Part shown: positions 9,952 through 11,113 of the stretch, one piece after another | How the letters are laid out: every line of letters starts with the position of its first letter | How positions within the stretch are numbered: position 1 is the stretch's first letter | Assembly: GCA_903854535.1 (NCBI GenBank) | Contig: CAINWR010000027.1 | Location: forward strand, 1 to 41,074 | Length of the DNA: 41,074 bases | From: Candidatus Staskawiczbacteria bacterium | GTDB lineage: Bacteria > Patescibacteriota > Minisyncoccia > Minisyncoccales > Staskawiczbacteraceae | Reading direction: 5' to 3' | Made by a program: the position numbers and the translations under genes | Notes under the pieces: model-generated | What the model saw: the letters and a program-made list of their open reading frames with translations, nothing else | What the model was told of the DNA's origin: nothing | Database searches by the model: none

Positions 9952-10632
9952 TTAAATATGTTCTTTTACGCAATCAAGAGAGAGGTTTTTAAACTTATTT
10001 ATTGCTTGTTTGTTGAATAAATTTTCCTGCCTTAAAAATGGTTTGATTATTCTTAATGCAAACGCCCAAGCCTTTCTTTCTGATAACACAATTTCTTGAT
10101 TTGTATTTGTTTTTCTAAATGGTTTTCCATATTTCTCTGGCTCTGCGTGAATATGACCAATTTCATGTAATAATGCAAGTATTACTTTTGGTTCTGTTAT
10201 GTCTCCATAAACAGTTACGATTTTTTCTTCAGGGTATTCGCCACTTTTTTCTAAATCATTAGATTTTGGATCAAATAAAGCTCGGCAATCTTCTGGCATA
10301 ATATCCATTATATTTATTTCATAGTCATCAATTTTTAAAATTAGGTGGCTAATTTCTAAAAAAAATCTTTTTTGTTCCTCATCTGAAAAATATGCAGATG
10401 TTCTATACTCAATAAGTAAGGTGATGCCCCCATTTTTAATTTCCATTCCACAAACCTCGTCATATTTTACTTCGCCAATTTTTTGCGATAGAAAAATTAA
10501 AGCACCCCTAGTTGCTTCTTGTTCTTTTGGGTTGCTTATTCTTTGTTTAATAATTTTTTCTACTCCTTCTGATATTGGGTAGGAATTTTCTAATTTTAGC
10601 CCTTCATTTTCTCGTTCAATTGGTTCTTTCAT
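9952..10632 (-). CDS. Hypothetical protein with HExxH-like zinc peptidase motif
   Basis: ALLHEIGHIHAEP. Confidence 0.55.
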   Translation of the reverse strand: MKEPIERENEGLKLENSYPISEGVEKIIKQRISNPKEQEATRGALIFLSQKIGEVKYDEVCGMEIKNGGITLLIEYRTSAYFSDEEQKRFFLEISHLILKIDDYEINIMDIMPEDCRALFDPKSNDLEKSGEYPEEKIVTVYGDITEPKVILALLHEIGHIHAEPEKYGKPFRKTNTNQEIVLSERKAWAFALRIIKPFLRQENLFNKQAINKFKNLSLDCVKEHI

Positions 10633-10660
10633 AATTTTTTATTTAATTTAAATTTGTCCC

Positions 10661-10688
10661 TTGACAAGAAGTTTTAATTTGCTATAAT
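10661..10688 (+). promoter_or_regulatory. Consensus sigma70 promoter TTGACA-16-TATAAT with no downstream ORF
   Basis: Exact -35 and -10 hexamers read directly. Confidence 0.8.
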
Positions 10689-10694
10689 TAATCT

Positions 10695-10766
10695 ACAAAC
10701 GGCTTCGGCCCTCTCTTGCTTAAAAACAAGAGTAACTATCTGAGAAGCGCTATAAGCGCTTCTTTT
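10695..10766 (+). ncRNA. Candidate small RNA antisense to the 3' end of the MazF-like gene
   Basis: Consensus promoter, GGCTTCGGCC tetraloop hairpin, CTCTTG..CAAGAG hairpin, then 9-bp AGAAGCGCT-ATA-AGCGCTTCT plus T-run. No ATG-initiated ORF on + strand. Confidence 0.55.
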
Positions 10767-11113
10767 AGTTTGGTAAAATTATTCTCGCTCATTGTATCAA
10801 TTTTATACTGTAATCTTTTTGTGTCTATCAATCTAATTTGTGACAATATCGCTACGCTTTGATTTGAAATTTTAAAGTAGTATTTTCCTATTTTATCGGT
10901 TCTAGTTAGTGGTAATATCCATGCTACATCATTATTAAATTTTAGTAAAATAACTGCAGGTCGCAAAAAATTTTCACCACTGCCATCTTGTTCAAATCCA
11001 ACATTTTCTCCAAGCGAAGCAAACCAAATTTCTCGTTCATGAAAAAATGGACGTTTTTTATCGTTATGGATTTTTGATTTTCTATCGTGCCATTTTTTAT
11101 AATCCTTTTTCAT
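10736..11113 (-). CDS. PemK/MazF-like protein
   Basis: REIWFASLGENVGFEQDGSGENFLRPAVIL..ILPLT..SQIRLIDTKRL. Confidence 0.75.
   Translation of the reverse strand: MKKDYKKWHDRKSKIHNDKKRPFFHEREIWFASLGENVGFEQDGSGENFLRPAVILLKFNNDVAWILPLTRTDKIGKYYFKISNQSVAILSQIRLIDTKRLQYKIDTMSENNFTKLKEALIALLR

Follow-up and report, generated by a model that had tools for sequence, protein, structure and literature searches.

A structured RNA gene convergent with a MazF subfamily and its probable role as an RNA antitoxin

A toxin-like gene that has no antitoxin beside it, and a consensus promoter that faces the end of that gene from the opposite strand, together raise the question of what the promoter serves and whether its product has anything to do with the toxin. 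Both are found in a 41,074-nucleotide stretch of DNA, referred to here as the window, which is contig 27 of the 0.84 Mb genome of a Candidatus Staskawiczbacteria bacterium. The initial annotation had proposed a short structured RNA which either controls the toxin-like gene as a cis-antisense transcript or acts as an independent sRNA. The features of the locus are as follows.

10661-10688, + strand: promoter TTGACA-16-TATAAT with TG before the -10 box; 12/12 consensus match, same-strand promoter kept in relatives
10694-10768, + strand: proposed RNA antitoxin gene of about 75 nt, ends predicted; fold z = -5.1, 39 bits with covariance model R1, match to covariance model R2 at 10694-10736
10694-10700, + strand: single-stranded 5' leader UACAAAC (consensus UACAAAY), conserved in alignments
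10701-10710, + strand: hairpin 1 (hp1), GGC-UUCG-GCC, covarying with GCC-UUCG-GGC and other stems
10713-10732, + strand: hairpin 2 (hp2), CUCUUG...CAAGAG, arms 10713-10718 and 10727-10732; all 7 hp2 pairs of the R2 alignment change on both sides
10733-10741, + strand: linker UAACUAUCU from hp2 to the terminator, read from the sequence
10742-10768, + strand: terminator hairpin GAGAAGCGCU-AUA-AGCGCUUCUU and T-rich tail, within the mazF 3' end; position conserved, sequences differing among relatives
10736-11113, - strand: MazF/PemK-like toxin gene, 125 aa; PF02452 E = 2.4e-9 (above cut-off)

The RNA gene and the toxin gene of the window

The promoter was found as first described and is the top match between 9000 and 13000, a region in which promoter-like sites occur at chance level (14 found against 15.6 expected). 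An inverted repeat, TTGTC-CCTT-GACAA at 10655-10668, spans its -35 box and could be an operator. The predicted RNA, TACAAACGGCTTCGGCCCTCTCTTGCTTAAAAACAAGAGTAACTATCTGAGAAGCGCTATAAGCGCTTCTTTTAG, begins about 6 bases past the -10 box, and the sequence from 10695 to 10770 folds with -26.7 kcal/mol (z = -5.1), a value equalled by none of 200 shuffles. All three hairpins of the initial annotation are present, the terminator stem having 10 pairs at 10742-10764 followed by TTAGTTT, and the 3' part of the RNA does overlap the last ~30 nt of the minus-strand MazF-like gene. The RNA is a single hp1-hp2-terminator unit without tandem repeats, both in the window and in its relatives. No Rfam family was reached at gathering score for the window or for ten relatives. 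On the minus strand at 9952-10632 lies a 226-aa ORF with a HEIGH motif like that of zinc metalloproteases and with no Pfam or PADLOC match.

The profile of the MazF-like protein matches Bacillus subtilis EndoA (4mdx, 3e-8) and its structural model matches Staphylococcus aureus MazF (E = 8.5e-8), and the modelled window toxin keeps the MazF/Kid/ToxN-type endoRNase fold. It belongs to a subfamily marked by an added N-terminal helix with a conserved W..K motif (W8/K12), in which the catalytic-type Arg is kept in 162 of 163 proteins. As the initial annotation had noted, no antitoxin gene adjoins the window gene; a PEP-synthase-like gene sits 2 nt ahead of it. PADLOC reported nothing, and NCBIfam has no model for the window protein and gave weak MazF matches for 7 of 25 subfamily members. 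The window genome carries four PemK-type genes, all of the W..K subfamily. A separate convergent RNA accompanies each of them, and the four RNAs differ in hp1 type (GGCUUCGGCC, UGCCAUUUGGCA, GGGGCAACCC and GGGAUUACCC).

Linkage of the RNA to one MazF subfamily

By DNA search the RNA was located at the 3' ends of mazF-like genes, in genomes belonging to the same genus and the same family. A protein search gave 65 loci, the named lineages being Patescibacteria and one labelled Margulisbacteria, and when the 3' ends were read on the antisense strand nearly every locus showed promoter, leader UACAAAY, hp1, hp2 and terminator in that order. Hp2 in many relatives is a GNRA-looped CUCYGYC-GCAA-GRCRGAG. 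When 286 genomes of the class were scanned with a profile, 64 gave matches, and the scores separated the subfamily clearly from conventional MazF; the subfamily is also present across the phylum.

Of 165 subfamily genes, 146 carry a motif of the hp1-type set in their antisense 3' stretch; the set was found in 19 of 165 on the opposite strand of that stretch, in 7 of 161 upstream stretches and in none of the 12 genes that form the clean conventional MazF group. Hairpins were visible by eye at most of the subfamily genes that the motif set missed. A second count came from R2, which was built on the non-coding 5' domain alone with no mazF overlap: its 22 matches in the 286 genomes comprise 21 at subfamily mazF genes and 1 at a mazF remnant. 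Weaker R1 matches without mazF in the scan of the order (24-38 bits) were rejected as ordinary terminators. The promoter score on the RNA strand is far above that on the other strand (p = 9e-34), in a comparison whose control groups included four fragments of subfamily genes and in which a few loci may repeat near-identical sequences. Given that promoter, hairpins and position are kept in relatives, the RNA locus is not due to chance. The check proposed in the initial annotation came out in its favour: the relatives have not kept the toxin gene while losing the RNA, the sole intact-toxin case of this kind being locus L275, where an apparently intact subfamily MazF has no visible RNA. The suggestion of an independent sRNA does not fit, the RNA having been found in the scanned genomes only with the W..K subfamily or its remnant. 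Viral contigs gave just three weak partial relatives and phage records none.

A shared protein antitoxin was not seen either. Among 135 subfamily loci there was no common upstream ORF (the largest cluster had 3 members), whereas conventional MazF controls in like genomes, a group which included the four subfamily fragments mentioned above, had upstream RHH/MazE-like ORFs.

The structure of the RNA was examined in an alignment of 71 distinct sequences. In this alignment, which was fitted to the model and so favours it, 99% of cells are paired and 9 of 10 pairs have changed on both sides. Its covariation score of 0.454 compares with 0.142 for shuffles and at most 0.094 for slid partners. Compensatory changes such as GGC-UUCG-GCC to GCC-UUCG-GGC are plain by eye. 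Read on the RNA strand there are 16 G-U pairs to 3 A-C mismatches, and the UUCG loop stands on the + strand in 65 of 71 rows; together these fix the transcribed strand.

The RNA classes, which were assigned by motif and by eye and not blindly, track the MazF tree with 34 changes against 78 when shuffled, a few near-identical loci possibly being repeated in this comparison. In 80% of cases the class is shared with the nearest MazF from a different genome. Paralogues within one genome share a class in 18% of pairs, compared with 31% of random pairs. The agreement across genomes and the low sharing among paralogues are as cognate, mutually insulated pairs predict. Up to eight MazF matches occur in one genome (G359), not all of them of the W..K subfamily.

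Decayed copies of the pair were also seen. At L242:1501-1600 (G414 contig 5), between genes reading as pheS and pheT, promoter and RNA are intact while mazF is cut to its last ~28 codons. At L005:1417-1536 and L043:1489-1647, internal deletions have shortened mazF to 39 and 52 aa respectively, and both loci have lost the promoter of the RNA. The latter two loci share an upstream TTCAAAACRGAATTNGC beside hp2, perhaps from a common insertion or recombination.

Several loci depart from the simple arrangement. Two mazF-like genes, each with its own convergent RNA, are present at L048, L062 and L103, in tandem at L048 and L062. In a Saccharibacteria locus (L107:3400-3600) the three-hairpin form is replaced by a longer convergent run of about five hairpins, which follows a TTGACA box and ATTACAAAAGC. 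At L006:70-330 and in L008 near 1300-1548 the same promoter type leads into a short hairpin RNA, a second TATAAT and a tRNA-like element of ~100 nt ending GTGGTTCGACCCCACC..., for which ARAGORN made no call.

Homologues of the MazF-like protein are also encoded on plasmids of cultured Nitratiruptor and Helicobacter, among them small H. suis plasmids which carry the module. In both genera an RNA-like hairpin series, preceded by a TATAAT-like box, lies on the opposite strand directly against the mazF stop, and Helicobacter plasmids differ from one another in a compensatory manner (AGCUUGCUG/CAGCAAGUU and AGCUUACCG/CGGUGAGUU; CCCUG/CAGGG and CCCUA/UAGGG). The Patescibacteria covariance model R1 does not detect the Campylobacterota RNAs, so that their proposed homology rests on position and structure. 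At one Campylobacterota locus (L289) a ribbon-helix-helix gene lies 122 nt upstream. Degraded copies are found on Campylobacter plasmids: L291, L292, L294 and L295 have a frameshifted MazF-like gene, two of these plasmids being typed as conjugative and one named pTet, and L294 and L295 retain a CCCTG...CAGGG hairpin at the end of the frameshifted gene.

Mode of action of the RNA

What is shown by comparison, at the level of the sequences, is a structured RNA family physically linked to one MazF subfamily, the two travelling and diversifying as matched pairs without a protein antitoxin. The reading that we prefer, with a probability of roughly two in three, makes the RNA the cognate antitoxin, one that acts by neutralising the MazF-like protein directly. 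This would resemble type III systems, except that the RNA is convergent and not repeated and that the toxin is a true MazF. Direct RNA-protein binding would be the likeliest mode on the same estimate, since the conserved 5' half of the RNA lies outside the mazF overlap and is not specially complementary to the start of mazF. It is this conservation outside the overlap, together with the analogy to type III, that suggests binding.

The locus would then be a two-gene toxin-antitoxin module, consisting of a minus-strand MazF-type endoribonuclease and a convergent structured RNA made from its own strong promoter. The RNA would be made in excess and would bind the MazF-like protein, with the leader UACAAAY and hp1/hp2 as the recognition body and the N-terminal helix of the subfamily (W8/K12) as a possible clamp. 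In the manner of type III systems, bound RNA would obstruct the RNase site; loss of RNA synthesis would set the toxin free. Expression, toxicity, binding and inhibition are steps that we infer. Against the antitoxin reading are the RNA itself, which unlike that of established type III loci is neither repeated nor upstream of the toxin, and the locus L275.

The proposal of the initial annotation has to be divided here. There is strong support for a dedicated RNA gene with a functional link to the MazF-like gene, but control in cis through the antisense overlap is not favoured. In such a type I-like scheme, pairing of the RNA to the mazF mRNA at its 3' end would bring about decay of that mRNA, as with RatA and txpA. 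The convergent layout is right for this, the 3' ends overlap, the RNA reaching a median of ~30 nt into the coding region at loci with a terminator, and txpA/ratA likewise acts through a 3' overlap (PMC4147584). However, the overlap region is only the palindromic, self-folding terminator and is absent or at most 5 nt long in 14 of 77 measured loci, while known type I overlaps are ~75 and 120 nt and concern small peptide toxins (PMC4147584). The conserved and covarying parts, namely 5' leader, hp1 and hp2, lie outside mazF, the 5' domain has no excess complementarity to the start region of its own mazF (p = 0.78), and pairing would not require the hp1 class to match the clade of the MazF protein. 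Antisense control is thus unlikely, if still to be taken seriously. The matching of classes to clades, and the obligate pairing of the two genes, would suit any RNA-protein partnership, including one in which the MazF-like enzyme uses the RNA as a regulated substrate or cofactor (e.g. a processed guide or sensor RNA) and the RNA is no antitoxin at all. The leader UACAAAY contains ACA, which is a cleavage site of E. coli MazF. Antidote logic nevertheless fits better with the RNA that outlives its toxin at L242, with an RNA promoter that decays only where the toxin is gutted, and with the carriage of the module by small H. suis plasmids, like addiction modules, and a role as substrate or cofactor is considered rather improbable.

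The two remaining explanations concern what is transcribed. The hairpins might be the 3' UTR and terminator of the minus-strand mazF mRNA, with the + strand promoter incidental. The terminator stems are indeed palindromic and partly bidirectional, but the promoter is enriched on the + strand only, and both the UUCG loops and the excess of G-U over A-C are on the RNA strand, which makes this explanation very improbable. Alternatively, the RNA might encode a small peptide antitoxin starting at AUGGCUUCGG, where an AUG stands at the start point in 50 of 67 loci. In 10 of the 67, the window included, it is ACG. The reading varies in length between 6 and 32 codons or stays open, hp2 indels are not multiples of three, and the changes compensate pairs and not codons. 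On these grounds a coding RNA is rejected as highly improbable.

Known systems and the meaning of the pairing

The systems that resemble this one do so in part. Type III loci have a tandem-repeat RNA upstream of the toxin, with one promoter and a terminator between the two (PMC5086642). Members of that type (ToxIN, CptIN and TenpIN) are alike in having a structured RNA beside an endoRNase of MazF/Kid-like fold, a fold related to MazF, and no protein antitoxin (PMC5086642), whereas here there is a single RNA with its own promoter, convergent with and downstream of a toxin which is MazF at the sequence level. The nearest case of a newer RNA antitoxin is RCd22/AbiF of Clostridioides difficile, in which a non-coding RNA neutralises the toxin by direct RNA-protein contact (PMC12373285), as is proposed here; its toxin is of the Abi_2 family and is preceded by two abiF RNA motifs, unlike the convergent RNA of the present locus. 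With type II MazEF/PemIK systems the window toxin shares the family PF02452 and the fold of the S. aureus and B. subtilis MazF proteins, but it has no MazE/RHH antitoxin, it has the extra N-terminal helix with conserved W and K, and its best-fitting partner is an RNA. The convergent type I pairs txpA/ratA and bsrG/SR4 also have converging toxin and RNA genes with overlapping 3' ends, yet their toxins are small peptides, their overlaps ~75-120 nt and their mode antisense (PMC4147584); a type I toxin is a small hydrophobic peptide, against a 125-aa protein of MazF fold here. No known system compared fits all the features, and a search of open-access papers found no description of a convergent RNA-MazF system.

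The balance leans towards a large undescribed class of RNA-antitoxin systems, present in Patescibacteria and also on plasmids of Campylobacterota. In such systems true MazF RNases would be restrained by convergent three-hairpin RNAs without repeats, and one genome of ~1 Mb or less would contain many mutually orthogonal RNA-toxin pairs. Genomes with several MazF proteins and differing RNA classes form a natural set for the study of orthogonal RNA-protein specificity, and the system can be tested directly on its plasmid copies in cultured Nitratiruptor and Helicobacter. In databases such genes are entered as toxins of the type II MazF/PemK kind, and no antitoxin adjoins them. Should the partner be an RNA, a single toxin family would straddle types II and III, and an entire group of 'orphan' toxins of the Candidate Phyla Radiation would have its explanation.
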